In this document: in pieces, positions 44,378-62,152 of the stretch | Layout: every line of letters begins with the position of its first letter | How positions within the stretch are numbered: position 1 is the stretch's first letter | NCBI RefSeq assembly: GCF_004349065.1 | Contig: NZ_SMKZ01000019.1 | Span: forward strand, 57,762-121,761 | DNA from: Jiangella asiatica | GTDB lineage: Bacteria; Actinomycetota; Actinomycetes; Jiangellales; Jiangellaceae | DNA length: 64,000 nt | Direction: 5' to 3' | Notes under the pieces: generated by a model | The model's database searches: none | What the model saw: the letters and a program-made list of their open reading frames with translations, nothing else | Told to the model about the DNA's origin: nothing | Program-made: the position numbers and the translations under genes

Positions 44378-44509
44378 ATGAGTTCTCGGATCTCGCTGCG
44401 AGCGGTATGGCCGGGCATCCTTACCGTCGGCCTGTTCGCCGTCCTGTACGCCTGGAACGACTTCCCCGCCCCGCTGTTCCTCAGCTGTGGACGGATCAGC
44501 GGTCCATGA
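44378..44509 (+). pseudogene. Fragment of a MalG-type sugar ABC permease
   Basis: One frame reads SLRAVWPGILTVGLFAVLYAWNDFPAPLFL in overlapping parts, which is the segment after the EAA loop of MalG-type permeases (PLARPGxxTxxLFxFLYAWNDFxxPL). It begins abruptly and ends at TGA 44507-44509 after about 43 codons, so the rest of the gene is missing. It is not a piece of any intact permease in this window at the same sequence, so it marks loss of a further importer. Confidence 0.7.
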
Positions 44510-44610
44510 CGATGCACCCGGCCGGACCGATTCCTGCCGGGACCGATGAGATCCGTGCTGTGGTCCGGTCGAATCGAACGACACACACAAGCCGGAAGGG
44601 AACCACGACC

Positions 44611-46710: not shown

Positions 46711-46806
46711 GGTGAGCTCCTCCTCGGTAGTGCCACCCAGTCGGGTGCACTCACCCATGGGTCGGAGCGGCCGCCGGATTTTCGACACGAGCCTAGGGCG
46801 CACCTC

Positions 46807-46835
46807 TTGACGCTCGGCCGAACCGGTCGTACGCT
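46807..46835 (+). promoter_or_regulatory. Promoter of the Dpp-type importer operon
   Basis: TTGACG (46807-46812), 17-base spacer, TACGCT (46830-46835), a good match to a housekeeping promoter. An inverted repeat that recurs before the enzyme operon lies four bases downstream. Confidence 0.6.
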
Positions 46836-46838
46836 CCC

Positions 46839-46854
46839 GCATACTGCTGTATGC
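46839..46854. promoter_or_regulatory. Putative GntR operator before the Dpp-type importer
   Basis: GCATAC-TGCT-GTATGC, a perfect 6+6 inverted repeat with a 4-base centre, followed by AATGGTCTAC. The site at 53455 aligns with it: both follow G-ATAC-4-G-ATGCAAT-GT--AC. It covers the transcription start region of the promoter. The GntR-type protein at 52728 is the likely binder. Confidence 0.65.
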
Positions 46855-46928
46855 AATGGTCTACGCAGCGCTGGCGCAGGCCGGCGCGCATCGACCGATT
46901 TCACCCGTCCGGCGAGAACGAGGTGACG

Positions 46929-47915
46929 ATGCTCCGCTTCACCGCCCGTCGGCTCCTCCACGCGATACCGCTGCTGTTCGGCGTCGTGACGCTGATGTTC
47001 TTCCTGCTCCAGCTGGCACCGGGCGACCCGATCCAGGCGCTGATCGGTGACTACCCGGCCACGCCCGAGTACGTCGCCCAGGTCACGAAGACGTACGGGC
47101 TCGACGAGCCGCTGATGGTGCGGTACTGGGAGTACTTGCAGCAGGTGTTCACGCTGGACCTCGGTGAGTCGCTGGCGAGCCGGGTCCCCGTCATCGACCT
47201 CATCACCGACCGGCTCGGTAACACGCTCATCCTCACCGTCACCGCGATGACGTTCGCCGCGATCATCGGGATCGCGCTGGGTGTGTGGGCCGGCGTCTCC
47301 CGCTCCCGGCTGCTTGACCACCTGGTGACCGGCGTCGCGGTGGGGTCGTTGTCGATCCCGATGTTCTGGCTCGGCCAGATGCTGGTCCTCATCTTCGCGA
47401 TCAAGCTGTCGGTGCTGCCGTCGCAGGGCATGTACTCCACCCGGTCCACGGCCGAGGGCATCGACCGGCTGTCCGACCTGCTGACGCATCTGCTGCTGCC
47501 GGCGCTGGTGCTGGCCATGCGCGAGATCGGCGTGGTGGCGCGGATCGTGCGCACCAGCGTGCACGACGTCCTCACGCTGCCCTACGTCGAGACGGCCCGC
47601 GCCAAGGGCTTCAGCCGGTCCAAGATCATCCGCCGGCACGTCGTGCGGAACTCGCTGCTGCCGGCGGTGACGGTCATCGGCTACAACTTCGGGTTCGTGC
47701 TGGCTGGCTCGGTGCTGGTGGAGACGGTGTTCGGCTGGCCCGGCATGGGGCAGCTGCTCTACGAGTCGATCCGGAACCGCGACAACGCGGTGACCATCGG
47801 CATCGTCCTGCTGATCGCCGTCGTCGTGGTCGTCGTCAACCTGATCACCGACCTGGTCTACGGCCTGGTGGATCCCCGCATCCGGGTCGGGGCGAGCACG
47901 GGAGGCCGGGCATGA
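46929..47915 (+). CDS. Dipeptide/oligopeptide-type ABC importer permease (DppB type)
   Basis: 328 residues with six predicted helices. MLRFTARRLLHAIPLLFGVVTLMFFLLQLAPGDP is the typical DppB/OppB start (shown here across its length), and the docking loop is YVETARAKGFSRSKIIRRHVVRNSL. ATG 46929 has GAGG seven bases upstream and precedes the first helix; the frame is open earlier. First gene of the dppBCDF-A-like operon. Members carry peptides, nickel, or various small compounds, so the family does not fix the ligand. Confidence 0.94.
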   Translation: MLRFTARRLLHAIPLLFGVVTLMFFLLQLAPGDPIQALIGDYPATPEYVAQVTKTYGLDEPLMVRYWEYLQQVFTLDLGESLASRVPVIDLITDRLGNTLILTVTAMTFAAIIGIALGVWAGVSRSRLLDHLVTGVAVGSLSIPMFWLGQMLVLIFAIKLSVLPSQGMYSTRSTAEGIDRLSDLLTHLLLPALVLAMREIGVVARIVRTSVHDVLTLPYVETARAKGFSRSKIIRRHVVRNSLLPAVTVIGYNFGFVLAGSVLVETVFGWPGMGQLLYESIRNRDNAVTIGIVLLIAVVVVVVNLITDLVYGLVDPRIRVGASTGGRA

Positions 47916-48859
47916 GCTTCGATCCCGACGTGACCGGCGCACTCGCCCCGCGCGGCGCGGCGCCGGACAACCCCGGACCGGCCGCACCCGGACCGGGCAC
48001 CGTCGCACCGGTCGCCCCCGTGCCGGTGCCCGGCGCCCGGCTGGCCGTGCGCCGCTTCCTGGGCCACGGCCCCGCCGTGGTCGGGCTGGCCATCTTGCTG
48101 CTGACCGCCGTCATGGCGATCGCGGCGGACTGGATCGCGCCGTACGACCCGCAGGCGGTCTCGACGGCGCTGCTCCAGCCGCCCAGCGGGGAGCACCTGC
48201 TCGGCACCGACACCGTCGGCCGCGACATCCTCTCCCAGGTCATCCACGGTGGCCGGGTGTCGCTGATCGTGGCATTGGTGACCGGCGTGGGCACGCTGGT
48301 GCTCGGCGCGCTGGTCGGGTCGATCGCGGGCTATTACGGCGGCCGGGTCGACGCGGTGCTGATGCGGATCACCGAAGTGTTCCAGGTGATCCCAAGCTTC
48401 GCGCTGGCGCTGATCATCGTGGCGGTCCTGGGCACGAACCTCGCCTACATCTGCGGCGCGCTAGTGATGGCGCTGTGGCCCCAGATGGCGCGGCTCGTGC
48501 GCGGCGAGGTCCTGAAGATCATGACGACGGACATGGTCGCGGCGGCCCGGACGGTGGGTCACTCCAACCGGCGGATCATCGTCTCCGACGTCCTGCCCAA
48601 CGCGCTGCCACCGCTCATCGTGCAGGCCACCATCGACCTGGGCAGCGCCATCCTGCTGCAGGCCGGCCTGGCGTTCCTGGGCCTCGGCGACCCCACGAAC
48701 CTCAGCTGGGGCGACATCCTCCAGCAAGCGCAGCGCGACCTCTCCGCCTGGTGGATGAGCGTGCCCGCCGGCGTCGTGATCTTCCTCGTCGTCCTGGCCG
48801 CCAACTTCGTCGGCGACGGGTTGAACCGTGCCCTGCGCCCCACGAGCAGCCACCTGTGA
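47912..48859 (+). CDS. Dipeptide/oligopeptide-type ABC importer permease (DppC type)
   Basis: 315 residues: a Pro/Ala-rich N-terminal extension of about 45 residues, then LAVRRFLGHGPAVVGLAILL and six predicted helices. HLLGTDTVGRDILSQVIHGGRVSL is the DppC hallmark, and the docking loop is MVAAARTVGHSNRRIIVSDVLPN. It overlaps the DppB-type stop by 4 bp (ATGA). Confidence 0.94.
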   Translation: MSFDPDVTGALAPRGAAPDNPGPAAPGPGTVAPVAPVPVPGARLAVRRFLGHGPAVVGLAILLLTAVMAIAADWIAPYDPQAVSTALLQPPSGEHLLGTDTVGRDILSQVIHGGRVSLIVALVTGVGTLVLGALVGSIAGYYGGRVDAVLMRITEVFQVIPSFALALIIVAVLGTNLAYICGALVMALWPQMARLVRGEVLKIMTTDMVAAARTVGHSNRRIIVSDVLPNALPPLIVQATIDLGSAILLQAGLAFLGLGDPTNLSWGDILQQAQRDLSAWWMSVPAGVVIFLVVLAANFVGDGLNRALRPTSSHL

Positions 48860-48870
48860 CCGGAGCTGAC

Positions 48871-49866
48871 ATGACGGAGCATGCGATGCACACGGGACTG
48901 TCGGTCCGCGACTTCTCGGTCGCGCTGAAGACACCGGGCGGGCCGATCACGCCCGTCGACCGCGTCAGCATCGACGTCGAGCCCGGCCGGCGGGTGGCGC
49001 TCGTCGGTGAGAGCGGATGCGGCAAGTCGATGATGCTGCGGGGCATCCTGCGGTTCATCCCGCCGTCGGTGCTGGACGGCGTGAGCGGTCGGGCCGCGTT
49101 CGACGGTGTCGACCTCGCCGAGCTGGACGACCGGCGGTTGCGCAACTATCGCGGTGACCGCATCGCGATGGTCTTCCAGGACGCGCTGGCCCGGCTCAAC
49201 CCGACGATGCCGGTCGGCGCACAGGTGGCCGAGGTGCTGACCGGCGGCGGTCGCGAGCGCGACGCGCAGGTCGCGGCGTTGTTCCGGGCGGTCGGCCTGG
49301 ACAGCTCGCGGGCCTTCCGCCGTCGCTTCCCGCACGAGCTCAGCGGCGGAATGCGCCAGCGGGTGCTCATCGCGATCGCGCTGGCCGGCGACCCGGAGCT
49401 GCTGGTGGCCGACGAGCCGACGACGGCGCTGGACGTCACCGTCCAGGCGCAGATCCTCGACACGATCGCCAGCGTGGTGCGCGAGCGCGGCATGGCGCTG
49501 CTCGTCGTCACGCACGACCTCGGAGTGGTCTCGGAGACCTGCGAGTACGTGTACGTGATGTACGCGGGCCAGATCGTGGAGTCGGGGCCGGTCGACGCCG
49601 TGTTCGACGAGCCCGGTCACCCGTACACGCAAGGGCTCATCGACTGCGTGCTCGACGTCGACGAGCCCGGGGAGCAGCGGGTCCGCACGATCCCCGGCGT
49701 GGTGCCGCCGCCGGGGAGCGTCACCGCCGGCTGCCGGTTCCGCGACCGTTGCCCGGCCGCGCACGACCGGTGCGCCGTCGATCCGCCCGTGGTCGAGCTG
49801 GGCCCGGGCCGCTCCGCGCGCTGCTGGCTGCGGGTGCCAGCCGAGACCGTCGAGGAGGCGTCGTGA
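48871..49866 (+). CDS. Dipeptide/oligopeptide-type ABC importer ATPase (DppD type)
   Basis: 331 residues. Walker A VGESGCGKSMMLRG, signature LSGGMRQRVLIAIAL, Walker B ELLVADEPTTALDV and VVTHDLGVV switch region are intact. The C-terminus has the cysteine-rich oligopeptide-transporter motif GCRFRDRCPAAHDRC that binds an iron-sulfur cluster in this family. ATG 48871 follows CGGAGCTGAC. It overlaps the DppF-type start by GTGA. Confidence 0.94.
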   Translation: MTEHAMHTGLSVRDFSVALKTPGGPITPVDRVSIDVEPGRRVALVGESGCGKSMMLRGILRFIPPSVLDGVSGRAAFDGVDLAELDDRRLRNYRGDRIAMVFQDALARLNPTMPVGAQVAEVLTGGGRERDAQVAALFRAVGLDSSRAFRRRFPHELSGGMRQRVLIAIALAGDPELLVADEPTTALDVTVQAQILDTIASVVRERGMALLVVTHDLGVVSETCEYVYVMYAGQIVESGPVDAVFDEPGHPYTQGLIDCVLDVDEPGEQRVRTIPGVVPPPGSVTAGCRFRDRCPAAHDRCAVDPPVVELGPGRSARCWLRVPAETVEEAS

Positions 49867-50915
49867 CCGACGAACCGGTGCTCAGCCTGACCGGCGTGAG
49901 CAAGAGCTTCGGGGTGCGCCGCGGCCTGAAGCTGGGCGGTCCGAGCCAGGCGCTCGCCGTCGACGGCGTCGACCTGCGGCTGCACCGGTCGCGGATGCTC
50001 GGGCTGGTGGGGGAGAGCGGCTGCGGCAAGAGCACGACGGCCCGGATCGCGCTCGGACTGTTGCGGCCCGACGGCGGCTCGGTCGAGCTGTACGGGCAGC
50101 CGATCGACCAGATGAGCCGGCGCGTCTACCGGCGCGAGTTCCGGCCCAAGGTACAGGCGGTCTTCCAGGACCCCGGCTCGGCGCTCAACCCGCGCAAGAC
50201 CGTCTTCGAGACGATCCGCAGCGCGATGGCCCTCTACGGCCGCACCTCCGGCGCCAGCGCCCACGACGACGTGGCAGGGCTGCTGGACCAGGTGGGTCTG
50301 CAGCCCGGCCGGCAGTTCCTGGCCCGCCGGCCGCACGAGCTCAGCGGCGGGCAGCTGCAGCGCGTGGGAATCGCCCGCGCGCTGGCCGTGGAGCCGGAGG
50401 TGATCATCGCCGACGAGCCGGTGTCCGCCCTGGACGTGTCGATCCGCGGCCAGGTGCTCAACCTGCTCGCCGACATCCGCGCCGAGCGGGCGATCAGCGT
50501 CCTGCTCATCACGCACGACCTGTCCGTGGTGGCGTCGACGGCGCAGGACGTCGCCGTCATGTACCTGGGCCGGATCGTCGAACAGGGACCGACCGAGCGG
50601 ATCTTCCGGTCGCCCCAGCACCCGTACACCCAGGCCCTGCTGGCGGCCACGCCACGGGTGCGCAGGCACGGGTCGCCGTCGAGCACCCGGCGCATTCTGC
50701 CCGGCGACCCACCGTCGGCGCTCACCCCACCCAGCGGCTGCCGGTTCCATCCGCGCTGCCCGTTCGCCATGGAGATCTGCTCCACCGTCGACCCTCCCTT
50801 GCTGCCGGTGCCGGATCACGGCCTGGCCGCGTGTCATCTGCTGTCCGAGCCGCCGGCCGAGCCGGTGGCCCAGAGTCGTCGCACCTCCGGTGTGGCAGAA
50901 AGCGACAGATCATGA
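49863..50915 (+). CDS. Dipeptide/oligopeptide-type ABC importer ATPase (DppF type)
   Basis: 350 residues. Walker A VGESGCGKSTTARI, signature LSGGQLQRVGIARAL, Walker B EVIIADEPVSALDVS and ITHDLSVV; the C-terminal motif GCRFHPRCPFAMEIC matches the DppD partner. GTG 49863 overlaps the previous TGA and has GAGGAGG upstream. Stop overlaps the binding-protein start (ATGA). Confidence 0.94.
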   Translation: MTDEPVLSLTGVSKSFGVRRGLKLGGPSQALAVDGVDLRLHRSRMLGLVGESGCGKSTTARIALGLLRPDGGSVELYGQPIDQMSRRVYRREFRPKVQAVFQDPGSALNPRKTVFETIRSAMALYGRTSGASAHDDVAGLLDQVGLQPGRQFLARRPHELSGGQLQRVGIARALAVEPEVIIADEPVSALDVSIRGQVLNLLADIRAERAISVLLITHDLSVVASTAQDVAVMYLGRIVEQGPTERIFRSPQHPYTQALLAATPRVRRHGSPSSTRRILPGDPPSALTPPSGCRFHPRCPFAMEICSTVDPPLLPVPDHGLAACHLLSEPPAEPVAQSRRTSGVAESDRS

Positions 50916-52519
50916 CCGTTCAGCTGGCTCGAGGCGGCCGCCTCGTCACGGCCGCCGTAGCCGCGGCCCTGCTCCTGGCCTCCTGCGGAGGCGACTCCGA
51001 TACCGGCTCCACCAACGGCGGTGGCGGCGGTGACACCACGTTCGTCACCGGGCTGGCGAGCCAGCCCGAGATGCTGGTGCGCAGCTTCACCTCCGACGCC
51101 ATCACGGCCACCGTCGGGCTGGCCATCGCCGAGGGCCTGGTGCGCACGACGAAGGACAAGGAGGTGGTACCGGCGCTGGCGCAGTCGTGGGACATCTCCG
51201 ACGACGGCCTGTCCTACACCTTCCACCTGCGCCAGGGCGTCACGTGGCACGACGGCGAGCCGTTCACGTCCGCGGACGTCGTGTTCAGCTTCCAGGAGGT
51301 GCTGCCGCTGTCGCCGACCGGCGCGGTGCTGACCGGCACCATCGACACCGTCACCGCGCCGGACGACGCGACCGTCGTGGTGACGCTGAAGCAGCCGCTG
51401 GCGCCGCTGCTGCTGGCGCTGGGCCCGCAGGACTTCAGCATCCAGCCCGCGCACATCTACGAGGGCACCGACCTGCTGGCCAACCCGAACAACCGGGCGC
51501 CGGTGGGCACCGGGCCCTACGTCTTCGACAGCTGGAGCGGTGACACCATCACGCTGACGGCCAACAAGGACTACTGGGACGGCGCGCCCGCCATCGGCCG
51601 GCTCGTCTACAAGGTGATCCCCGACAGCAACTCGCGCGCCAACGCGCTGCTGAACGGCGAGATCGACTACATCAACAAGTTCGACGTCGACGACACCATC
51701 GTCAAGGCGCTGGACGGCAACGACGAGATCACCCTGCAGAACGGCCGGGTCTCGGCGACGTTCATGACGATGTGGCTGAACCAGAACGAGGAGCCCTTGG
51801 GCGACCCGGAGGTCCGCAAGGCGCTGTTCATGGCCCTGGACCGCGACCTGATGGCCCAGTCGGCCGATCCGGAGTTCACCCAGCCCGCGACCGGGTCGTT
51901 CCCGATCGGCCTGTGGGCCACCGACACCGGCATCGACTACCTGGACATGTACGGCTACGACTCCGACGCGGCGGCCGCGCTGCTGGACGAGGCCGGCTAC
52001 CCAGAGCAGGGTGACGGCACCCGGTTCACCGTCAGGCTGCGGTACGTGGCGACCCAGCCGTACACGCAGGCGCTGGCCGCGATCATCGCCGACAACTGGC
52101 GGGCCATCGGCGTCGAGACCGAGCCCACCCAGGACGAGGCGACGGTGAACAGCTCGGCGGTGTTCACCGACCACGACTTCGGCACGAACATCCTGTCGCT
52201 GGACACCAGGCCGGACCCGGAGTTCGGGATCGGCCGCGTCTACAAGTGCAACCCGAACGACCTGGCGTTCAACAACCCGACCGGCTACTGCAACGAGGAG
52301 CTCGACGCCCTGTTCGTCGAGGCGGCGCGGACCCAGGACCAGCCCCAGCGCGCCGAGATCTACGCACAGGCGCAGGCGATCATCGCCGAGGAGCTGCCGG
52401 CCATCACGCTGCTGCAGATGGACCAGCCCGACGCGATCCGCTCGAGCTTCAACGGCATCGAGGAGTTCCTGTCCGGCGCGCTGTCCGGTGACCTCACCTG
52501 GAGCGCCCTGGAGCCGTGA
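50912..52519 (+). CDS. ABC importer solute-binding protein, family 5 (DppA/OppA type)
   Basis: 535-residue lipoprotein. Signal RGGRLVTAAVAAALLLASC ends in a lipobox (Cys 25) and a Gly/Ser linker. VPALAQSWDISDDGLSYTFHL, WHDGEPFTSADVVFSF and PVGTGPYVFDSW are the standard family 5 motifs. It delivers the ligand to the DppBCDF-type complex. Because downstream genes encode a dehydrogenase/decarboxylase pathway under the same candidate operator, the ligand is probably that pathway's substrate rather than a nutritional peptide. Confidence 0.94.
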   Translation: MTVQLARGGRLVTAAVAAALLLASCGGDSDTGSTNGGGGGDTTFVTGLASQPEMLVRSFTSDAITATVGLAIAEGLVRTTKDKEVVPALAQSWDISDDGLSYTFHLRQGVTWHDGEPFTSADVVFSFQEVLPLSPTGAVLTGTIDTVTAPDDATVVVTLKQPLAPLLLALGPQDFSIQPAHIYEGTDLLANPNNRAPVGTGPYVFDSWSGDTITLTANKDYWDGAPAIGRLVYKVIPDSNSRANALLNGEIDYINKFDVDDTIVKALDGNDEITLQNGRVSATFMTMWLNQNEEPLGDPEVRKALFMALDRDLMAQSADPEFTQPATGSFPIGLWATDTGIDYLDMYGYDSDAAAALLDEAGYPEQGDGTRFTVRLRYVATQPYTQALAAIIADNWRAIGVETEPTQDEATVNSSAVFTDHDFGTNILSLDTRPDPEFGIGRVYKCNPNDLAFNNPTGYCNEELDALFVEAARTQDQPQRAEIYAQAQAIIAEELPAITLLQMDQPDAIRSSFNGIEEFLSGALSGDLTWSALEP

Positions 52520-52727: not shown

Positions 52728-53408
52728 ATGGTCACGGTCTCTAGCGAAGGTCAGCGACGATTCCCGCCGCCGGACCGCAGGCCGAGCGCCTACGACAAGA
52801 TCAAGCAGGCGATCCTCTCCGGCGAGCTGGAACCGGGGCAGTCGCTGATCGAGGCCACGCTCGCGGAGTGGTGCCAGGTCAGCCGGACGCCGGTGCGTGA
52901 AGCCCTGACGCGCCTGGAGCAGGACGGCCTGATCCGGCGCGGCGACCGCGGCCTCGTGGTTCGCGAGAGCAGCCCCGAGGAGATCCTCGACATCTACGAG
53001 ACCCGCATCGTGCTGGAGGCGACAGCGGCTCGCTTCGCGGCTGACCGGCGCAACCAGAACGACCTGCTCCTGATGCGCCGGATGATCCCGCGGATGGCCA
53101 GCCTCGCCGACGCGGACGCCACCACGAAGGCAGCGGTCAACGCGGAGTTCCATCGGCTGATCTGGCGGGCCAGCCACAACGGCTCGCTGATCGACCTGCT
53201 CGGCCGGCTGAGCATGCACCTGGGCCGCTACCCGGCCACCACGCTGGCCTACCCGGGCCGGTGGGAGACGGCCAACCGGGAGCACGAGGAGCTCGTGGAT
53301 GCCATCGAGGCACGCGACGGCGAGCGCGCCGGCCAGATCGCCGGGCACCACTTCACCTCGGCCCGCGACATCCGGCTGAAGCTCTGGGAGACCGAGAGCC
53401 TGGCCTGA
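52728..53408 (+). CDS. GntR-family transcriptional regulator (FCD type)
   Basis: 226 residues. N-terminal winged helix: AYDKIKQAILSGELEPGQSL, then LAEWCQVSRTPVREALTRLEQDGLI. The helical FCD effector domain follows (YETRIVLEATAARFA, NAEFHRLIWRASHN, HEELVDAIEARDGERA) with histidines likely to bind a metal. FCD regulators usually sense carboxylates. Located between the importer operon and the enzyme operon; inverted repeats at 46839 and 53455 are its likely sites. The 208-bp gap upstream holds only a 10-bp palindrome GTGCCGGCAC (52644-52653) of unknown meaning. Confidence 0.93.
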   Translation: MVTVSSEGQRRFPPPDRRPSAYDKIKQAILSGELEPGQSLIEATLAEWCQVSRTPVREALTRLEQDGLIRRGDRGLVVRESSPEEILDIYETRIVLEATAARFAADRRNQNDLLLMRRMIPRMASLADADATTKAAVNAEFHRLIWRASHNGSLIDLLGRLSMHLGRYPATTLAYPGRWETANREHEELVDAIEARDGERAGQIAGHHFTSARDIRLKLWETESLA

Positions 53409-53454: not shown

Positions 53455-53470
53455 GTATACAGTCGAATGC
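53455..53470. promoter_or_regulatory. Putative GntR operator before the LLM/DUF3830 operon
   Basis: GTATAC-AGTC-GAATGC followed by AATCGTAGAC. It aligns with the site at 46839 over about 29 bases, keeping G-ATAC, G-ATGCAAT and GT--AC. It lies 27 bases before the ATG of the first luciferase-like gene. No clear -35/-10 pair was seen around it. Confidence 0.6.
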
Positions 53471-53496
53471 AATCGTAGACACGGAGGTCGTCGCGC

Positions 53497-54480
53497 ATGC
53501 GCTTTGGAGCAGCCATTCCGAACTGTCGCGAAGGCAAGGTCTATCCGCCCGGGTTCACCACCCCCGAGGTCCTGACCGAGCTGGCGGTGACGGCCGAGGC
53601 GAGCGGCTTCCACTCGCTGTGGGCCAACGACCTGCAGTCCACCTTCGACGAGGCGCTGTCCGGGCAGGCGCGGGCGACACCCAACTTCTTCGAGGCGCAG
53701 ACGACGCTGGCGTACCTGGCCGCACGGACCGAGCGGATCCGGTTCGTCACCTCCGCGGTCACGGTTCCGCTGCGCGACCCGATCCTGCTGGCCAAGCAGG
53801 TCGCCACGCTCGACGTGCTCTCCGGTGGGCGGTACGCGCTGGGGCTCGGGCTGGGCGGCAAGCGCACCGAGCTGGACCGGCTGCGCGGCCGCTTCAGCTC
53901 GTCGATCAACCGCGGCCGCTGGCTCGAGGAGTCGCTGGAGCTGATCGAGAAGCTGCTGACCGAGCAGGTCGTCGACCACGACGGCGAGTACTTCAGCGTC
54001 GAGGGCGCCGAGGTCTTCCCCAAGCCGCTCCAGCGGCCGTTCCCGCTCTACCTGACCGGCGCCGGCGACGAGATGCTGCGCCGCACCGCCCGGTGGGGCG
54101 CCGGCTGGATCCACATGCACATCACGCCGGAGCAGCTGACCGAGCGCATCCAGGCGCTGCACGAGGCGTGCGCGAAGGCCGACCGCGACCCCGCCGAGAT
54201 CGAGGTCTGCCTGCAGTTCGACGTGCTCGTCGCGCCCACGCGCGAGGAGGCGCGGCAGCGGTGGGAGAACTCCCTGGCCGCCGGCCTCGGCGCCGCTCGT
54301 GGCCGCTCGGCCGAGACGTCGTACATCGTCGGATCGCCGGACGACGTCGTCGCCCGGCTCGGCCAGTACCAGGACGCCGGCATGCAGCACGTCGGCCTGA
54401 TCCCCAGCGCGCACACGCCGGAGCAGCTGATCGAGCAGGTCCGGCTGCTGGGCGAGCAGGTCCTACCGCGGTTCGCCTGA
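53497..54480 (+). CDS. Luciferase-like (LLM) flavin-dependent oxidoreductase 1
   Basis: 327 residues, TIM-barrel flavoprotein of the bacterial luciferase superfamily, using FMN or coenzyme F420. RFGAAIPNCREGKVYPPG starts the barrel; SLWANDLQS, TERIRFVTSAVTVPLRDP and LSGGRYALGLGLGGKR are family motifs. The C-terminus VGSPDDVVARLGQYQDAGMQHVGLIP is typical. GGAGG lies nine bases before ATG 53497. First gene of the enzyme operon. It is probably a monooxygenase or dehydrogenase; cofactor and substrate cannot be told. Confidence 0.92.
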   Translation: MRFGAAIPNCREGKVYPPGFTTPEVLTELAVTAEASGFHSLWANDLQSTFDEALSGQARATPNFFEAQTTLAYLAARTERIRFVTSAVTVPLRDPILLAKQVATLDVLSGGRYALGLGLGGKRTELDRLRGRFSSSINRGRWLEESLELIEKLLTEQVVDHDGEYFSVEGAEVFPKPLQRPFPLYLTGAGDEMLRRTARWGAGWIHMHITPEQLTERIQALHEACAKADRDPAEIEVCLQFDVLVAPTREEARQRWENSLAAGLGAARGRSAETSYIVGSPDDVVARLGQYQDAGMQHVGLIPSAHTPEQLIEQVRLLGEQVLPRFA

Positions 54481-54556
54481 CACCGCGGTTCGCACGCTGC
54501 CGCAGCTGGCGCACCACCGCTGCCAGCACCACCGAGACGAATCGATGGGGTGAGGA

Positions 54557-54985
54557 ATGAAGAGGATAGAGGTCAGGGTCGGCGACGCCACAGCGCGCTA
54601 CACCCTGCTCGAGGACGCTCCGAAGACCGCCGAGGCCTTCTGGGAGTCGCTGCCGATCGAGGGCGTCATCACGCACGCCCGGTGGGCCGGCTCCGCGGTG
54701 TGGGTCAAGACGCCCAACCAGCCGATCGCCGCGCTCGACGACATCGAGCTGCCGGTGACGTCGATCTACCCGGGCACGATCGTGGTGCGGCCCAACCCGC
54801 GCGGCGTCGCCGAAGTGTTCATGTCCTACGGCGTCGCCGAGTCGCGCGGCCCGCTCGGGCGCACCTACGCCACCCCGGTCGCCGAGCTGGAGGGCGACGG
54901 CAAGGCGCTGATGGGCGCGTTCGGCGACACCTGGCAGGGCGGCTCGACGTCGGTGTCGATCAGCCGAGCGGAGGACCGGTCGTGA
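54557..54985 (+). CDS. DUF3830-like protein A
   Basis: 142 residues, small all-beta protein resembling the DUF3830 family (cyclophilin-like fold). Recognisable blocks: EDAPKTAEAFWESLP, THARWAGSAVWV, LPVTSIYPGTIVVRP and YGVAESRGPLG. No catalytic signature is known to me and no signal peptide is present. First of three adjacent homologues; GTGA overlap with the next gene. Members often lie in catabolic operons, and a role in substrate binding or as an enzyme subunit is a guess. Confidence 0.75.
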   Translation: MKRIEVRVGDATARYTLLEDAPKTAEAFWESLPIEGVITHARWAGSAVWVKTPNQPIAALDDIELPVTSIYPGTIVVRPNPRGVAEVFMSYGVAESRGPLGRTYATPVAELEGDGKALMGAFGDTWQGGSTSVSISRAEDRS

Positions 54986-55392
54986 CGAAGCTGCGGATCA
55001 CCATCGACGGCGTCAGCGCCGTCGCCGAGCTCAAGGACGCCGCCGCGCCAGCCGGAGTGGCCGCCGTCGTCGGCGCGCTGCCGCTGCGTACCCGCTTCGT
55101 GCACGCCAGCCGCAGCGGCAACTGCGCCGTGGCGCACGACGCCTCGCTGCAGCACCCGTCGGTGGGCATCGAGGGCCAGGTCAGCATGTACTACCCGGGC
55201 ATGCTCGCCTACGACCCGGCCCGCGGTCACCTGGTGTTGGCCTACGGCCAGGGCCAGGCGCGCAGCAACACCGGGACCCACTGGGTGACGTATCTCGGCG
55301 ACGTCGTGGAGAACCTCGCCGAGCTGGCGGTGAAGCTCCAGGACACCCGCGACCACGGTGCCCTGGACGTGCGGATCGAGTTGGGGGAGTGA
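54982..55392 (+). CDS. DUF3830-like protein B, divergent member
   Basis: 136 residues. It shares the outline of its neighbours, but with changes: AAPAGVAAVVGALPL, VHASRSGNCAVAH, VSMYYPGMLAYDP and LAYGQGQARSN in place of the consensus blocks. It uniquely carries GTHWVTYLGDVVENLAELAVKL. GTG 54982 overlaps protein A's stop and its own stop overlaps a GTG of protein C, so the three are translated in a chain. It may form a hetero-oligomer with A and C. Confidence 0.65.
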   Translation: MTKLRITIDGVSAVAELKDAAAPAGVAAVVGALPLRTRFVHASRSGNCAVAHDASLQHPSVGIEGQVSMYYPGMLAYDPARGHLVLAYGQGQARSNTGTHWVTYLGDVVENLAELAVKLQDTRDHGALDVRIELGE

Positions 55393-55394
55393 CG

Positions 55395-55817
55395 ATGACG
55401 CAGAAGCGCATCCGGTTCGAGTCCGGCGGCGTCGCCGCGGAGGCAGAGCTGCTGGAGGCGAACGCGCCCAAGGCCACCGCGGCCCTGTGGGAGATGCTGG
55501 CCGAGCCGATCGAGCGCAAGCTCATCTCGGCGAAGTGGTCCGGCGACGTCGGCGTCCTGCATCCCGGCGCCGGGCCGCTGCGCGAGGTGGCCGAGCTGGA
55601 GAACCCCGTCACCTCCATCTATCCGGGCGCCGTCGTCATGCGCCCGCGCGGCAGCGAGATCCTCATCGGATACGGGGTGGGGGAGTACCGCTGGGCCGTC
55701 GGGGTGGACTACACGACCCGGCTGGCCAAGATCGTCACCAACCGGTCGGAGTTCCTGTCCGTCGTGGCCCGCACAGCCGACCAGGGTCCGTCGTCCGTCG
55801 TCGTCTCCCGGGTCTGA
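55395..55817 (+). CDS. DUF3830-like protein C
   Basis: 140 residues. ANAPKATAALWEML, SAKWSGDVGVLHP, NPVTSIYPGAVVMRP and YGVGEYRWAVG match protein A closely in order and spacing. ATG 55395 has GGGGGAG six bases upstream; GTG 55389, overlapping the stop of B, is also possible. Followed after 30 bases by the second luciferase-like gene. Confidence 0.75.
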   Translation: MTQKRIRFESGGVAAEAELLEANAPKATAALWEMLAEPIERKLISAKWSGDVGVLHPGAGPLREVAELENPVTSIYPGAVVMRPRGSEILIGYGVGEYRWAVGVDYTTRLAKIVTNRSEFLSVVARTADQGPSSVVVSRV

Positions 55818-55847
55818 CCGCGTTCGAACACGTCGAGGGGAAAGCGC

Positions 55848-56837
55848 ATGGTGAAGTTCGCCTGGTTGTGCAGTCACGAGTCCTACCAGCCGGAGGAGCT
55901 GGTGGAACAGGCAGTCCTGGCCGAGCAGGCTGGCTTCGACACCGTCCTGGGCTCGGATCACTTCCACCCGTGGGTCGACGACGTCTCCGCGGCCGGCTTC
56001 GTCTGGAGCTGGCTGGGCAGCGTCGCGGCACGGACCGAGCGGGTCGAGCTCGGCACCTCCGTCACCTGCCCGTTGTTCCACTACCACCCCGGGCTGATCG
56101 CGCAGGCCTCCGCCACCGTGCAGCGGCTCTCCGGCGGCCGGCTCCTGCTGGGGCTGGGCAGCGGCGAGGCCATCAACGAGACGCCGCTGGGCTGGGAGTT
56201 CCCCGGGTATGGCGAGCGGATGGGCCGGATGCGGGAGGCGCTGGAGATCATCCGGCGGCTGCACGCCGGCGAGAAGCTGGACCACGACGGCGAGTACTAC
56301 CGCACGACGACGGCGCGCCTCTACAGCCCGCCGACGGCGCCGGTACCGACGCTGTTGGCCGCCGGCGGCCCGAAGTCGGCGGCCTTCGCCGGGACCCACG
56401 CCGACGGTCTTATCACCAGCGTCAAAAACCCGCAGGACACCCTCACCAAGGTGATCGAGCCGTTCCGCGCGGCCGCCGCCGAGCGGGGCAACGACAACCC
56501 GCGGATCCTGGCCACCCGGTGGACGGTCCTGGCCGGCGACGACGACGAGGCCTGGCGCGCGCTGGGCCCCATGCGCGGACTGCGCGCGCCCGGACGGCTG
56601 GAAGCCGCCGACCCGGCCGTGCTGCGTGAGCGCGCCGACGCGATGGACCGCGCCGAGGTGCTGGGCAGCTACACGCTGGTGGCCGACGCCGACGAGCTGG
56701 TCGAGGCCTACCGGCCGCTGGTCGAGGAGGTCGACGCGGAGTGGGTGTCGATCCAGGTCGCCAGCAACGACCCGGTGGCGGCCATCAAGCTGATCGGCGA
56801 GAGCGTCCTGCCGCGGCTGCGCGAGCTGGCGAGTTGA
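55848..56837 (+). CDS. Luciferase-like (LLM) flavin-dependent oxidoreductase 2
   Basis: 329 residues of the luciferase-like superfamily, with the F420-dependent glucose-6-phosphate-dehydrogenase-like pattern GSDHFHPWVDDVSAAGFVWSWLGSVAARTERVELGT (seen in part), LSGGRLLLGLGSGEAINE and AAGGPKSAAFAGTHADGLI. That resemblance favours F420 as cofactor. It is clearly different from LLM 1, so the two probably act on different steps. GAGGGGA lies seven bases before the ATG. Probably oxidises an alcohol or hydroxyacid in the pathway. Confidence 0.92.
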   Translation: MVKFAWLCSHESYQPEELVEQAVLAEQAGFDTVLGSDHFHPWVDDVSAAGFVWSWLGSVAARTERVELGTSVTCPLFHYHPGLIAQASATVQRLSGGRLLLGLGSGEAINETPLGWEFPGYGERMGRMREALEIIRRLHAGEKLDHDGEYYRTTTARLYSPPTAPVPTLLAAGGPKSAAFAGTHADGLITSVKNPQDTLTKVIEPFRAAAAERGNDNPRILATRWTVLAGDDDEAWRALGPMRGLRAPGRLEAADPAVLRERADAMDRAEVLGSYTLVADADELVEAYRPLVEEVDAEWVSIQVASNDPVAAIKLIGESVLPRLRELAS

Positions 56838-56841
56838 TCGC

Positions 56842-58449
56842 GTGACGAGCGAGGCGGCGAGCACCGCCGACCTGATGGCGGCCTACCTCGCCGAGGCGGG
56901 CACCGAAGCCATCTTCGCCTACCCCGGCGACCCGATCATCGAGTTCATGGAGCGCTCGCGGATCCGCGGGATCGACGTCGTCCTGGCGCGGCGCGAGGGC
57001 ACCGCGGCGTTCATGGCCGAGGCGCACGGCATGCTCACCGGTCGTCCCGGCGTCTGCCTGTCGACCTTGGGTCCCGGGTCGACGGCGCTGGTCAACGGCG
57101 TCGCTGCGGCCACGCTCGACCGGGTGCCGATGCTGGCGATCTCGGGGCAGATCGAGTCCGCCCGGGAGCCGTTCTTCACCCACCAGGTGGTCGACCACCA
57201 GGCGTTGTTCGCGCCGGTGACGAAGTGGGCCGGCCGGATGGACGCCGGTGCTGTCGCCACCGTCATGCGCAAGGCACTGCGCACCGCGACCGCCGAACGC
57301 CCCGGCGCCGTGCACCTCACCTGTGGGTCGGACACCTTCAAGGCGCCGGCCAGGGACGCCGTCGTCGCGGTGCCGCCGCTCGGCCCGCACCGAGGCGGTG
57401 TCAGCGTCAGCGGCGCCGACCCGTCGCGCCTGCTCGCGGCCGCGCGCCGTCCGGTGCTGCTGGCCGGCATCGGCGCGGTGCGCTGCGGTGCCACGGAGCA
57501 GCTGACCCGGTTGGCGGAAGTGGCGGGCCTGCCGGTGGTGGTCGCGCCGATGGCCAAGGGCGTCGTCGCCGAGGACTCGTCGATGTTCGCCGGCGTGCTC
57601 GACATGGCCTGCAACCAGGTGCTCTGGGACCTCCTGGCCTCCGCCGACCTGATCGTGGCGGCCGGCTTCGACCCCGTCGAGCTGATCAAGCCGTGGCGGG
57701 TCACGGCGCCGGTCGTGCACGTCGACACCACCGCGAACACCGACCAGGTGTACGCGAGCGACTGTGAGGTCGTCGGCGACGTCGCCGCCGCCCTCGGCTG
57801 GTTCGCCGACTCCTGGACCGGCGAGCCCCGATGGAGCGAGCGCGAGGTGAAGGAGCACCGGGCCCGGCTGCGCGAGGCCTACTACGCCGGGCGCGTCGCG
57901 GACCGGCTGAACCCGACCGACGTCATCGACGTGGTCGCCGGCCGGCTGGCCGGGGACGCGATCGTCACCACCGACGTGGGCTCGCACAAGCTCCTGGTCG
58001 GGCAGGGCTGGCCGGCCGCGTCGCCGCGCAGCGTGCTCATGACCAACGGACTGTCCGCGATGGGGTTCGGCGTGCCGGCGGCGATCGCGGCCAAGCTGCT
58101 CGACCGCGACCGGCCGGTGGCCGCTCTCGTCGGCGACGGGGGCTTCGCGATGGTGGCCACGGAGATGCGGCTGGCCGCCGGGCTCGGGCTGCCGATCGTG
58201 GTGGTCGTGTTCGTCGACGGCAGCCTCAACCGGATCGAGCTGAAGCAGATGGCGGCCAGCTACCCGAGCGTGGCGACCCGCATCGAGGACACCGACCTGG
58301 TCCAGCTGGCCGGTGCGATGGGGTGCGACGGGGTTCGGGTGCGCTCGGCGGGCGAGCTGGACCGTGCCCTGGAGAACGCCACCGGCCTGACCCGTCCGCT
58401 GGTGGTCGAGGCCCGGATCGACCCGGCCCAGTACGCGTCGCAGTTCTGA
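56842..58449 (+). CDS. Thiamine-diphosphate-dependent enzyme (acetolactate-synthase / sulfopyruvate- or benzoylformate-decarboxylase superfamily)
   Basis: 535 residues with the Pyr, central and PP domains. The proton-relay glutamate is E52 in ARREGTAAFMAEA. The diphosphate/Mg motif begins VGDGGFAM and ends DGSLN about 30 residues later, where the usual NN is SLN. It lacks an obvious FAD-site extension and is shorter than true acetolactate synthases, so decarboxylation or carboligation of a 2-keto acid is more likely. GTG start, four bases after LLM 2. Followed by an aldehyde dehydrogenase, which fits a 2-keto acid to aldehyde to acid sequence. Confidence 0.88.
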   Translation: MTSEAASTADLMAAYLAEAGTEAIFAYPGDPIIEFMERSRIRGIDVVLARREGTAAFMAEAHGMLTGRPGVCLSTLGPGSTALVNGVAAATLDRVPMLAISGQIESAREPFFTHQVVDHQALFAPVTKWAGRMDAGAVATVMRKALRTATAERPGAVHLTCGSDTFKAPARDAVVAVPPLGPHRGGVSVSGADPSRLLAAARRPVLLAGIGAVRCGATEQLTRLAEVAGLPVVVAPMAKGVVAEDSSMFAGVLDMACNQVLWDLLASADLIVAAGFDPVELIKPWRVTAPVVHVDTTANTDQVYASDCEVVGDVAAALGWFADSWTGEPRWSEREVKEHRARLREAYYAGRVADRLNPTDVIDVVAGRLAGDAIVTTDVGSHKLLVGQGWPAASPRSVLMTNGLSAMGFGVPAAIAAKLLDRDRPVAALVGDGGFAMVATEMRLAAGLGLPIVVVVFVDGSLNRIELKQMAASYPSVATRIEDTDLVQLAGAMGCDGVRVRSAGELDRALENATGLTRPLVVEARIDPAQYASQF

Positions 58450-58467
58450 GCACCTCGGAGGAGAACC

Positions 58468-59886
58468 ATGAAGCAACTGCGCTCGTTCGTCGCCGGCGAC
58501 TGGGTCGACGGCGAGCGAACCACCGTCGCCCGCGACACCTACACCAACGAGCCGGTGGCCGAGGTGCACGTGCCCGGTCAGGGCCAGGTGGGGGAGGCAA
58601 CCCGCGCGGTCGCCGCCGCCCAGGCCGAGCAGCAGCTCACGGCCTACGACCGGTACCGCATCCTGGCCCGGGCCAGTGAGCTGGTGCTCGAACGGGCCGG
58701 CGAGCTGGTCGACTCGATCGTCACCGACACCGGCTTCACCACCGTCGACGCCCGCCGCGAGATCGACCGGACGGCGCAGACGCTGCTGCTGTCGGGCGAG
58801 GAGGCCAAGCGGCTGCGCGGCGAGGTGGTGCCGATCGACGCCGACCCCGCCGCACCGGCCCGCGTGGCGTTCACCGTGCGCCGGCCGGTGGGCGTGGTCT
58901 GCGCCATCACCCCGTTCAACTCGCCGCTGAACACCGTCGCGCACAAGGTCGCGCCGGCGTTGGCGGCCGGGAACGGCGTGGTGCTGAAGCCGGCGCTGCA
59001 GACGCCGCTGACCGCGGACCTGCTCCTGCGCGTGCTGCTGGACGCCGGCCTGCCGGCGGGCCTGATCAGCGTGCTGTACGGCGACGGCTCGACGGTCGGG
59101 CAGTGGCTGCTGGAGGACGAGGTGCCCGCGTACTACGCGTTCACCGGCAGCACCGCGGTCGGCGAGCACATCCAGCGCACCATCGGCGTGCGCCGGGCCC
59201 AGCTGGAGCTCGGCAGCCTGGCCAGCACGATCATCTGCCACGACGCGGACCTCAAACGGGCGGCCCAGCTGTGCGTCAACGCCGCGTTCCGCAAGGCCGG
59301 TCAGGTGTGCACGTCGGTCCAGCGGCTCTACGTCCACGAGTCCGTCGTCGACGACTTCACCGGCGCGCTGCGGACGGCCCTGGACGGCCGCGGCGTCGGC
59401 GATCCGCGCGACCCGGCGACCTTCGTCGGCCCGCTCATCGACGAACAGGCGGCCGAGCGCGTGGCCGGCTGGGTGAGCACCGCCGCCGAGCAGGGCGCGG
59501 AGGTGATCGTCGGCGGTGGCCGCACCGACGCCGTCGTCCAGCCCACCGTCCTCACGAACGTCGCGCCGGACATGAACGTCATGTGCCGGGAGATCTTCGG
59601 CCCGGTCGTGTCGATCCGGCCGTTCACCGACGTGGACGCCGCGATCGACGAGGCCAACGACACCCCGTACGGCCTGGCGGCGGGGCTGTTCACCGCCGAC
59701 ATCGGCCGGGCGCTGCACGTGGCCGGCCGGTTGCGCGTCGGGACCGTGCACGTCAACGAGACCTCCAGCGCCCGCGTCGACCTGATGCCCTTCGGCGGGG
59801 TCAAGGCCAGCGGGTACGGGCACGAGGGCCCCGCCTACGCCATTCGCGACATGACCGAGGAGACGTTGTTGACGCTCGGCCCGTGA
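58468..59886 (+). CDS. NAD(P)-dependent aldehyde dehydrogenase
   Basis: 472 residues. The nucleophile is C281 in KAGQVCTSVQR and the general base E247 in LELGSLAS; CAITPFNSPLN and FTGSTAVGEHIQ are cofactor and phosphate-binding segments. EIFGPVVSIRPF and FGGVKASGYG follow as usual. Oxidises an aldehyde to the acid. GGAGGAG lies just before the ATG. It directly follows the thiamine enzyme, whose aldehyde product it probably consumes. Confidence 0.94.
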   Translation: MKQLRSFVAGDWVDGERTTVARDTYTNEPVAEVHVPGQGQVGEATRAVAAAQAEQQLTAYDRYRILARASELVLERAGELVDSIVTDTGFTTVDARREIDRTAQTLLLSGEEAKRLRGEVVPIDADPAAPARVAFTVRRPVGVVCAITPFNSPLNTVAHKVAPALAAGNGVVLKPALQTPLTADLLLRVLLDAGLPAGLISVLYGDGSTVGQWLLEDEVPAYYAFTGSTAVGEHIQRTIGVRRAQLELGSLASTIICHDADLKRAAQLCVNAAFRKAGQVCTSVQRLYVHESVVDDFTGALRTALDGRGVGDPRDPATFVGPLIDEQAAERVAGWVSTAAEQGAEVIVGGGRTDAVVQPTVLTNVAPDMNVMCREIFGPVVSIRPFTDVDAAIDEANDTPYGLAAGLFTADIGRALHVAGRLRVGTVHVNETSSARVDLMPFGGVKASGYGHEGPAYAIRDMTEETLLTLGP

Positions 59887-59936
59887 CGAACGGGGTCAAC
59901 GCGCCGTCCCCGTCCACCGGAGAAGCGGAGTACACC

Positions 59937-61424
59937 GTGCATCGACCGGGAACCAGCCCGCAGCCGCGCACCGACGTCGTCGTCGTGGGCGGCGGCAACG
60001 CCGGCTTCTGCGCCGCGCTCGCCGCCGCCGAGCGCGGTCGTTCGGTCGTGCTGCTGGAGAAGGCGGACCTGCAGCATGCTGGCGGCAACAGCTACTACAC
60101 CGCCGGCGCCACCCGGATCGTCCACGGCGGGCTGCCCGACCTGCTCGACATCGTCGAACCCGACGACAGGCACCGCGTCACGGAGGTGCCCGCCTACACC
60201 GAGGCCGAGTACGCGGCCGACCTGGCGAAGGTCACCGACGGGCGCAACGACCCCGAGCTGACCCGGGTGCTGGTGGCGCAGAGCCAGCCCGTGATGCGCT
60301 GGCTGCACGGGCACGGCCTGCGCTACCGCCTGATGTACGAACGCCAGGCCTATCAGCGGCACGACGGCAGCTACCTGTTCTGGGGCGGACTGCACATCGG
60401 CAACGTCGACGGCGGGCAGGGCCTGATGGCCGATCACGCCCGCGCCGCGGCCGCCGCCGGCGTCGACGTCCGCTACGGCCACCGGGTGCGGGAGCTGCTG
60501 GTCCAGGACGGTGCGGTCGTCGGGGTCTCCTACACGACCGGCGACGGCGCCACGGCGCGGCTCGGCGCGTCGTCGGTCGTCCTGGCGGCCGGCGGCTTCG
60601 AGGCCGACCCGGACCTGCGCGAGCGCTACCTCGGCCCCGGCTGGTCCAAGGCGCGTGTGCGCGGCACCCTGCACAACACCGGCGACCTACTGATGGAGGC
60701 GCTGCGCATCGGCGCCGCGCCGGCGGGGGACTGGTCGACCTGCCACAGCGTCGCCTGGGACGCGGGCCACCCCTGCAACGAGAGCAACCGCGAGCTCACC
60801 AATCGACTGACCAGGCAGAGCTACCCCCTGGGGATCGTGGTCAACCGCAACGGGGAGCGGTTCCTCGACGAGGGGGAGGACTTCCGCAACTACACCTACG
60901 CCAAGTACGGCAGCCAGATCCTCGAGCAGCCCGGCTCCGTCGCGTTCCAGCTCTTCGACGCCGAGCTGCGGCCGCTGCTGCGGACCGAGGAGTACGACAT
61001 GCCGGGCATCAGCGTGGTCGTCGCCGACACGGTGGAGGAGCTGGCCCGCGGTGCCGGGATCGACGAGCCCGGCCTGCGCAAGACGGTGGCGGAGTTCAAC
61101 GCCGCCATCGACACCTCCGTGCCGTTCGACCCGACCGTCAAGGACGGCCGACGGGCGGGGGTCGTGCCGCCCAAGAGCAACTGGGCGGCGCCGCTGCGCA
61201 CCCCGCCGTTCTACGCCTACCCGGTGACCTGCGGCATCACGTTCACCTTCGGCGGCCTGCGGTCGGACACGCACGGGCGGGTCCTGACAGCGCACGGGTC
61301 GGTGCTCCCCGGGCTGCTGGTCGCCGGTGAGATGCTGGGCGGCCTGTTCAGCGGCAACTACCCCGGCGGCACGGGGCTCGCGGCCGGCGCAGTGTTCGGG
61401 CGCCGGGCGGGCAGCATCGCGTGA
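59937..61424 (+). CDS. FAD-dependent dehydrogenase, TcuA (tricarballylate dehydrogenase)-like
   Basis: About 495 residues. N-terminal FAD motif DVVVVGGGNAGFCAALAAA with VLLEKA; GGNSYYTAGATRIVHGG is the TcuA/fumarate-reductase-flavoprotein loop; ITFTFGGLRSDTHGRVL and the closing GNYPGGTGLAAGAVFGRRAG complete it. Members oxidise carboxylic acids to enoic acids or reduce the reverse. GTG 59937 is preferred because CGGAG lies six bases upstream; GTG 59883 overlaps the aldehyde dehydrogenase stop (GTGA) and would add 18 residues. Last gene of the operon; its end overlaps the converging deacetylase gene by 67 bp. Confidence 0.88.
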   Translation: MHRPGTSPQPRTDVVVVGGGNAGFCAALAAAERGRSVVLLEKADLQHAGGNSYYTAGATRIVHGGLPDLLDIVEPDDRHRVTEVPAYTEAEYAADLAKVTDGRNDPELTRVLVAQSQPVMRWLHGHGLRYRLMYERQAYQRHDGSYLFWGGLHIGNVDGGQGLMADHARAAAAAGVDVRYGHRVRELLVQDGAVVGVSYTTGDGATARLGASSVVLAAGGFEADPDLRERYLGPGWSKARVRGTLHNTGDLLMEALRIGAAPAGDWSTCHSVAWDAGHPCNESNRELTNRLTRQSYPLGIVVNRNGERFLDEGEDFRNYTYAKYGSQILEQPGSVAFQLFDAELRPLLRTEEYDMPGISVVVADTVEELARGAGIDEPGLRKTVAEFNAAIDTSVPFDPTVKDGRRAGVVPPKSNWAAPLRTPPFYAYPVTCGITFTFGGLRSDTHGRVLTAHGSVLPGLLVAGEMLGGLFSGNYPGGTGLAAGAVFGRRAGSIA

Positions 61425-62059
61425 GCCGCCGGGTGGAGGATGCGCTCACCCCCCAGCACGATCAGCCGCTCGGCGCGGTCCTGGTGCCGCAGCCAGCGGT
61501 TGCGCAGCGGGTCGTCGGCGGGGAGCCCGGTGTGGCAGGCGATCGCGGCGCGCTGCCGGTCGCGATCGGCGTCGACCACCAGCACCTGGCGACCGGAGCC
61601 GGGGTCCGTCGCACGCAGCGACCAGGCGTAGAGCACGCTGCCGTGCTTGCCGGCGGCGCGGTAGGCCGCCCGCATCGCCCGGACGTGGTCAGGGTGCGCA
61701 CCCGACCCAGTCGCGTCGACGGTGAGCAGGGCGTCCACGCCGTCGGCGACGGCCAGGACCTCGTCGGCCAGGGCGTCGACGGCGGTCCGCCCGAGCGTCC
61801 CCGGAGCGTGGTCGAGCAGCGTCATCTCCTCCGCGCCGAGGTGACGGGCGGCGCGTCCCAAATCGCGGGCCCGGTCGACCCGCCGGCGGGGGCTCGGGTC
61901 CGCGCGCCGGCCGTGCGTGAGGCACAGGATGCGCACCGTCGTCCCCGCCCCGGTGAACGCCCCGATCACGCCCCCGAGCGCGAACGTCGCGTCATACGGA
62001 TGGGCGCAGACGACGAGCAGGCGCCGGACCGGAGGTACCGGCTTGGTGAGCTTCCCCAT
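61358..62059 (-). CDS. PIG-L/LmbE deacetylase family protein with altered active-site motif
   Basis: 233 residues. The fold pattern is clear: RRLLVVCAHPYDATFALGGVIG, then LCLTHGRR, a long helix (RRRVDRARDLGRAARHLGAEE), and GAHPDHVRAMRAAY with the third metal ligand. However, the family signature AHPDDE is AHPYDA here (H20, Y22, D23, A24): metal ligands His and second Asp remain, the catalytic first Asp is Tyr and Glu is Ala. Ability to deacetylate is doubtful. Start 62059 lies shortly before the conserved strand; 62110 is an alternative. Confidence 0.8.
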   Translation of the reverse strand: MGKLTKPVPPVRRLLVVCAHPYDATFALGGVIGAFTGAGTTVRILCLTHGRRADPSPRRRVDRARDLGRAARHLGAEEMTLLDHAPGTLGRTAVDALADEVLAVADGVDALLTVDATGSGAHPDHVRAMRAAYRAAGKHGSVLYAWSLRATDPGSGRQVLVVDADRDRQRAAIACHTGLPADDPLRNRWLRHQDRAERLIVLGGERILHPAAHAMLPARRPNTAPAASPVPPG

Positions 62060-62152
62060 GGCTCCAGCATCGCGATGCCGGAGCCATGGGTCGTAGGGGC
62101 GGAAGACCATGATCTCGGGACTTTCGGCCCGAGATCGGGTGATCTGTCCCGG

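Follow-up and report, generated by a model that had tools for sequence, protein, structure and literature searches.

The window analysed here, 64,000 nucleotides of Jiangella asiatica (contig NZ_SMKZ01000019.1, positions 57,762 to 121,761 of the forward strand), carries on its + strand, at 53497-61424, eight closely spaced genes in which three different members of the DUF3830 family (A, B and C) stand between two luciferase-like (LLM) oxidoreductases and are followed by a thiamine diphosphate (ThDP) enzyme, an aldehyde dehydrogenase (ALDH) and a flavin adenine dinucleotide (FAD) protein of the TcuA (tricarballylate dehydrogenase) type. The genes are:

53497..54480, + strand, LLM1, F420-family LLM oxidoreductase (TIGR03619, 191.7 bits, cut-off 166.9)
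54557..54985, + strand, DUF3830 subunit A, with His40 and Glu95 (PF12903, 46.9 bits)
54982..55392, + strand, DUF3830 subunit B, with Gln92 where A has Glu95 (PF12903, 44.7 bits)
55389..55817, + strand, DUF3830 subunit C, with the Glu present and the His position variable across C rows (PF12903, 30.7 bits)
55848..56837, + strand, LLM2, LLM oxidoreductase (TIGR03557, 229.5 bits, cut-off 210.4)
56842..58449, + strand, ThDP enzyme, acetolactate synthase-like (Pfam, three-domain ThDP enzyme)
58468..59886, + strand, ALDH (Pfam match)
59883..61424, + strand, FAD protein, TcuA type (NF006130, 555.3 bits, cut-off 369)

The spacings between successive genes are 76, -4, -4, 30, 4, 18 and -4 bp, with the A/B and B/C junctions overlapping as GTGA, which agrees with the original prediction of eight same-strand genes with gaps of at most 77 bp and GTGA overlaps; the genes are probably transcribed as one unit. 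C starts with GTG at 55389, an alternative ATG lying at 55395. By Pfam both LLM proteins belong to Bac_luciferase and the flavoprotein to FAD_binding_2; the latter stays below the second TcuA model, TIGR02485 (263.3 against a cut-off of 372.6). The 3' end of the FAD gene is overlapped on the opposite strand by a gene that by eye is PIG-L-like (61358-62110, - strand). It was considered as operon member and rejected, as it has no match in the loci L009 and L010 of the relatives J. endophytica and J. muralis.

That the three small proteins are DUF3830 homologues was confirmed by profile, since all exceed the PF12903 cut-off of 26 bits, the match of C being partial and limited to residues 10-59. 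They measure 136-142 aa and have PF12903 as their only domain. Models of A and B found 3KOP, from Arthrobacter, as best match; the Pictet-Spenglerases KslB and McbB came next, and cyclophilins scored far lower. Judged from these models, A and B would have the full-length cyclophilin-like fold of 3KOP and the cyclophilin-like catalytic domain of the KslB/McbB subtype. Since the predicted fold lies near that of enzymes joining an amine to an aldehyde or keto acid, the DUF3830 trio likely acts jointly on an amine-carbonyl type bond. A role as peptidyl-prolyl isomerases or as chaperones for the other enzymes seems very improbable to us.

The eight-gene set stood, but as the extent of the system it proved too small, because a GntR gene and a dpp-type ATP-binding cassette (ABC) importer that has a common operator-like motif with the operon belong to it. 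These upstream features, all on the + strand, are:

46841..46860, + strand, operator-like site ATAC-N4-GNATGCAATSGT upstream of dppB, inside the inverted repeat GCATAC-N4-GTATGC
46929..47915, + strand, dppB-type permease, named by reading, start inferred (92-93% identity in L009 and L010)
47912..48859, + strand, dppC-type permease, named by reading
48856..49866, + strand, dppD-type ATPase, named by reading, start inferred
49863..50915, + strand, dppF-type ATPase, named by reading, start inferred
50912..52519, + strand, family 5 solute-binding protein (SBP5; PF00496, 285 bits), start inferred, query 50930-52519
52728..53408, + strand, GntR/FCD regulator (Pfam; 90% identity in L009 and L010)
53457..53476, + strand, second operator-like site, upstream of LLM1

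The solute-binding protein was the importer component run against the family libraries, and no NCBIfam family scored above its cut-off for it. The motif ATAC-N4-G-N-ATGCAAT-S-GT has two sites in the window, at 46841 and 53457, and none in 100 shuffles, and the stretch holding the site before dppB is conserved in L009 and L010. As the motif was written from the window sites plus these two loci, the remaining genomes are the fairer test: each of the six operon-bearing Jiangella genomes has exactly two sites and the six operon-free ones have none, while a reversed control pattern has no site in any of the 12. Since the motif stands before both dppB and LLM1, importer and enzymes would serve one function, and the GntR protein is the candidate for binding these putative operator sites.

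The closest named relatives of protein B are found in J. endophytica and J. muralis (83-84% identity), and importer, GntR and all eight operon genes recur there in unchanged order with 83-94% identity. A, B and C are the only DUF3830 matches in the own genome. The triple was found in 6 of the 99 genomes searched (own included), all Jiangella, which is 6 of the 12 of the genus; ten others have a single match. No tandem DUF3830 genes were found outside Jiangella in samples of 393 class genomes and 396 phylum genomes, with ten candidates scored per genome in both and the phylum sample searched at E 1e-12, and no relatives of protein B were found on plasmids in PLSDB at E 1e-5. In one Chloroflexota class 86 of 177 genomes match the A+B+C profile and two of the 177, G393 and G564, have the triple. 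On the G393 contig, from a Chloroflexi metagenome-assembled genome (L011), one strand carries GntR (41%), ALDH (35%), an importer of the SBP3 amino acid type, LLM1 (36%), TcuA-type FAD protein (34%), TcuB, A (35%), B (39%), C (32%), LLM2 (35%) and ThDP enzyme (34%), identities being to Jiangella; A and B pass PF12903, while the third gene, without Pfam match, is labelled C by position. In G564 (L046, contig C65) the order is TcuB, TcuA-type protein (54% to L011), a two-domain DUF3830 gene, a formamidase-type gene, ThDP enzyme (49% to L011), C, B and A (32%, 38% and 39% to best query), divergent LLM1 (38%), a further DUF3830 gene and a dpp-type importer, and the GntR-type match of this genome sits on another contig.

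The core common to Jiangella, L011 and G564 thus comprises LLM1, the triple, ThDP enzyme, TcuA-type protein and importer, whereas LLM2, ALDH and linked GntR are common to Jiangella and L011. This is in line with the expectation that the neighbours would be conserved together in other genomes, with the whole order kept in L009 and L010 and the core in two Chloroflexota genomes, and a chance neighbourhood was rejected because the core set was found again, at low identity, in another phylum. Metagenome matches of the A, B and C types have longest contigs of equal size (10974, 13892, 58060, 16529, 24977, 2533 and 6432 bases), which suggests, without proving it, that the triple stands together in further metagenomes. 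In G564 all 15 DUF3830 profile matches of the genome lie on two contigs, C65 and C64 (L046 and L047), three open frames containing two matches apiece. These contigs also encode LLM proteins, an aldehyde ferredoxin oxidoreductase, an FrhB-type protein and peptide-type importers. A shorter kit is seen in L048 (G554, contig C180), with a dppB-type gene, a solute-binding match, DUF3830, GntR, a second DUF3830 and LLM1, and no ThDP or TcuA matches on its 10-kb contig.

For the comparison of residues an alignment of 99 rows was used, consisting of 20 A rows of a first set, 11 of the 31 A of a second set, 36 C, 12 B and 7 second-set B, plus the triples of Jiangella, L011 and G564 and an outgroup of four single-copy DUF3830 proteins. 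The Glu95 column, aligned with Glu97 of McbB, holds Glu in 34/34 A and 39/39 C rows and Gln in 21/21 B rows, a count that excludes P0033 as identical to L011_C (both are rows of alignment A4, the basis of the B model and of one profile). The equivalent of the catalytic Glu97 is hence missing from one of the three chains, B having Gln, and by gene position the residues read Glu, Gln, Glu (A, B, C) in Jiangella, L011 and G564 alike. His40 is conserved in 33 of the 34 A rows, in all B and in only 7 of the 39 C rows, and Arg97 is invariant across A, B and C rows. As the conserved residues differ between the three gene positions in each of the three lineages, a heteromer is plausible, and A, B and C likely form a single one: A has both Glu and His, B is without the Glu and C often without the His, which is the pattern expected of a role-dividing heteromer, although no proof of it.

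Each of the two Jiangella LLM proteins passes the cut-off of a family whose name marks it as F420-dependent, that of TIGR03619 is likewise exceeded by LLM1 in L011 and G564, and CofD, of F420 biosynthesis, is over cut-off in the own genome, G393 and G564 (the search covered CofD only). The flavin oxidation formerly ascribed to the two proteins was therefore not supported; judged from family membership, LLM1 and LLM2 would use F420, and the operon points to a pathway that may do so. Jiangella LLM2 has the positions His39, Trp43 and Glu108 of the Rhodococcus F420-dependent glucose-6-phosphate dehydrogenase (FGD), which we take to be its catalytic residues. The phosphate-pocket positions 197, 258 and 282 are Asn, Arg and Ser in Jiangella LLM2 and Lys, Lys and Arg in that of L011, which passes the FGD cut-off (481.5/420), whereas the Jiangella protein fails TIGR03554 (193.1 against 420). 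In the Rhodococcus enzyme the phosphate of glucose 6-phosphate (G6P) is held by Lys197, Lys258 and Arg282, according to the excerpt of PMC5352752. A G6P dehydrogenase was accordingly rejected as identity of Jiangella LLM2, its phosphate pocket being lost and the cut-off missed.

Taken together, gene set, conservation, motif and residue pattern lead us to prefer, tentatively and as a possibility rather than a probability, a GntR-linked route that takes up and degrades a carboxylic acid containing nitrogen, probably an opine-like or cyclic one, and in which a DUF3830 heteromer would act at a carbinolamine/iminium C-N centre. The SBP5-type importer would bring the compound into the cell, and LLM1 and LLM2 would shuttle hydride to and from F420, preparing the N-substituted acid. 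In the L011 version LLM2, with its full G6P site, would be the source of F420H2, with LLM1 as the reductase; in the Jiangella version LLM2, its G6P site lost, would oxidise an alcohol of the pathway. The A-B-C protein would then split the N-substituted intermediate at its carbinolamine/iminium carbon into an amine part and a 2-oxo acid, which the ThDP enzyme would decarboxylate; the aldehyde formed would be oxidised by ALDH to a di- or tricarboxylate, into which the TcuA-type protein would introduce a double bond. For these last three enzymes the given order is possible. Ureidoglycolate breakdown and Pictet-Spengler ring closure each go through an amine-carbonyl adduct, and because both do, the DUF3830 step was placed at such a centre. 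A bolder version, which we regard as improbable, would make A-B-C the catabolic counterpart of the Pictet-Spenglerases, cleaving cyclic amine-keto acid adducts in an F420-linked manner with Glu in the A and C sites and Gln in that of B, and DUF3830 a broad carbinolamine/iminium family that also performs, for example, ureidoglycolate cleavage in Chloroflexota urate breakdown.

The known systems resemble this set in part. Compared with KslB and McbB, which are cucumopine synthase-like, A, B and C are single-domain proteins without the Cucumopine_C bundle, A lacks the equivalents of two McbB residues, Arg72 and His87, and the Jiangella operon looks catabolic. The FAD protein recalls the TcuAB tricarballylate dehydrogenase, TcuB being adjacent in L011 and G564; to our knowledge nothing in Tcu loci corresponds to the remaining genes of the operon. 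With opine catabolic operons the likeness would be confined to the predicted DUF3830 fold, which resembles cucumopine-synthase-like enzymes. 3KOP and the single-copy DUF3830 proteins of urate/allantoin clusters are alike in family and fold, but the single-copy genes adjoin amidohydrolases, whereas the three diverged genes of the Jiangella operon have LLM, ThDP and FAD genes as neighbours.

Several observations weigh against breakdown at a carbinolamine/iminium centre. The Cucumopine_C helical bundle (PF18631) is missing from A, B and C, and no PF18631 match was found in the own genome. As a side observation, a congener has a Cucumopine_C-type protein with no cyclophilin-like domain in the same frame (L067, G007:C8:17696-18112). 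The A profile alone failed to reach KslB or McbB in PDB, and the alignment of the B profile with McbB-like proteins was restricted to its first 57 residues. Two other McbB residues, Arg72 and His87, have no counterpart in A, where they align with Val67, conserved in more than 95% of A, and with Glu86; the Glu86 column reads Glu in 32/34 A rows and 37/39 C rows, with His in two B rows. A, B and C were not filed as Pictet-Spenglerases because of the missing bundle, the Gln in B and these two lost residues. Glu95 and Arg97 are both missing from the four single-copy outgroup rows. In the tree, built on 145 columns and with a long-branch warning, most A, B and C rows stay apart; however, L011_C groups next to B (95/84), and for G564_C and L011_A no position is resolved. 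The changes needed are one for A (support 74/95), two for B (one being P0033) and, because of the positions of L011_C and G564_C, three for C, at least two of them forced. For Chloroflexota the tree thus gives no old A, B and C groups, nor a time of origin of the types; these faults leave our estimate for the mechanism unchanged, since it was never based on the tree alone. TcuB is absent from 3/3 Jiangella genomes searched and present in both Chloroflexota genomes, and LLM2 and ALDH have no match within the 20 kb examined around the G564 triple. The ThDP and ALDH proteins exceed no NCBIfam cut-off among the models listed, the best acetolactate synthase equivalog model, NF006187, giving the ThDP enzyme 387 against 509. 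Naming a substrate from the ThDP, ALDH or GntR family matches was rejected, as no listed model attains its cut-off. Finally, single-copy DUF3830 genes in urate/allantoin and hydantoinase-type clusters, together with relatives lacking Glu95 and Arg97, point to cyclic ureides rather than opines.

This last point was followed in Chloroflexota loci without the triple, of which 17, drawn from 121 matching genomes in one search and 86 in another, were considered (16 small ones with one DUF3830 gene, plus L048). In 14 of them proteins of the urate/allantoin type are also matched, with none in L040, L042 and L048: allantoinase, OHCU decarboxylase, urate oxidase, allantoate amidohydrolase or 8-oxoguanine deaminase, names given by reading of the proteins without family search, two of the 14 matches (L033 and L043) being weak. 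On plasmids 40 records match a single-copy DUF3830 protein; of five that were viewed, four carry a gene for allantoinase, dihydropyrimidinase or another amidohydrolase at most a few genes away, and the fifth carries none. Cyclic ureides therefore recur around the DUF3830 family. Single-copy genes inside urate/allantoin-type breakdown clusters were seen in the Chloroflexota loci L033, L035-L039, L041, L043-L045 and L049-L057, where DUF3830 often adjoins an allantoinase-like gene, opposite OHCU decarboxylase- and urate oxidase-like genes. A single-copy DUF3830 protein may supply a step in such clusters, and the urate and hydantoin clusters likely have a common chemical theme.

The strongest rival, doubtful in our estimate, has the trio belong to an amide hydrolase that opens the ring of a cyclic amide or ureide, with no carbinolamine chemistry, by analogy with 5-oxoprolinase, which has cyclophilin-like subunits. 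Neighbours of single DUF3830 genes (allantoinase, dihydropyrimidinase, Asp/Glu racemase family and amidohydrolase genes) would suit it, as would the formamidase-type gene next to the triple in G564; yet in Pfam and NCBIfam scans none of the eight Jiangella genes proved to encode an amidohydrolase, ATP-dependent lactamase or carbamoylase, the Glu95 and Arg97 kept by A are lacking in the four aligned single-copy proteins, and the best characterised structural neighbours of the models are Pictet-Spenglerases. The linear route of the original prediction, in which LLM flavin oxidation gives a 2-oxo acid that passes through ThDP decarboxylation, ALDH and FAD protein, combined here with a binding or scaffold role for the DUF3830 proteins, has in its favour the gene order and the joint presence of ThDP, ALDH and TcuA-type genes in Jiangella and L011. 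It appears unlikely, however, as the LLM proteins belong to families named F420-dependent and the DUF3830 residues are too strictly conserved for a plain scaffold.

Slightly less credence still is given to a biosynthetic set, in which the DUF3830 proteins would couple an amine to an aldehyde or keto acid produced by the ThDP enzyme. ThDP enzymes are able to form C-C bonds. KslB and McbB, moreover, are biosynthetic enzymes according to the excerpts of PMC12513458 and PMC7024544. Against such a role, the peptide-type importer has the same operator-like motif as the enzymes, the GntR/FCD regulator is linked and no exporter family has a Pfam match among the eight genes; ALDH and TcuA-type genes are also typical of breakdown.

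As for the literature, no paper naming DUF3830 was found, with none of the matches listed mentioning PF12903 or DUF3830, the excerpts on cucumopine catabolism carry no link to DUF3830, and no paper was found that brings together most components of the gene set. DUF3830 is hence a family with a solved structure, 3KOP, yet with no function found in print. The operon makes that function directly testable: its DUF3830 genes form a defined set of three with a conserved Glu/Gln/Glu pattern, a structural relative has been characterised, and importer and enzymes share an operator-like motif. Further upstream, between a sugar-type ABC cluster and the dpp genes, lie two genes whose proteins by eye are RibD/DHFR-type reductase-like (44407-45222, + strand, and 46114-46842, - strand).

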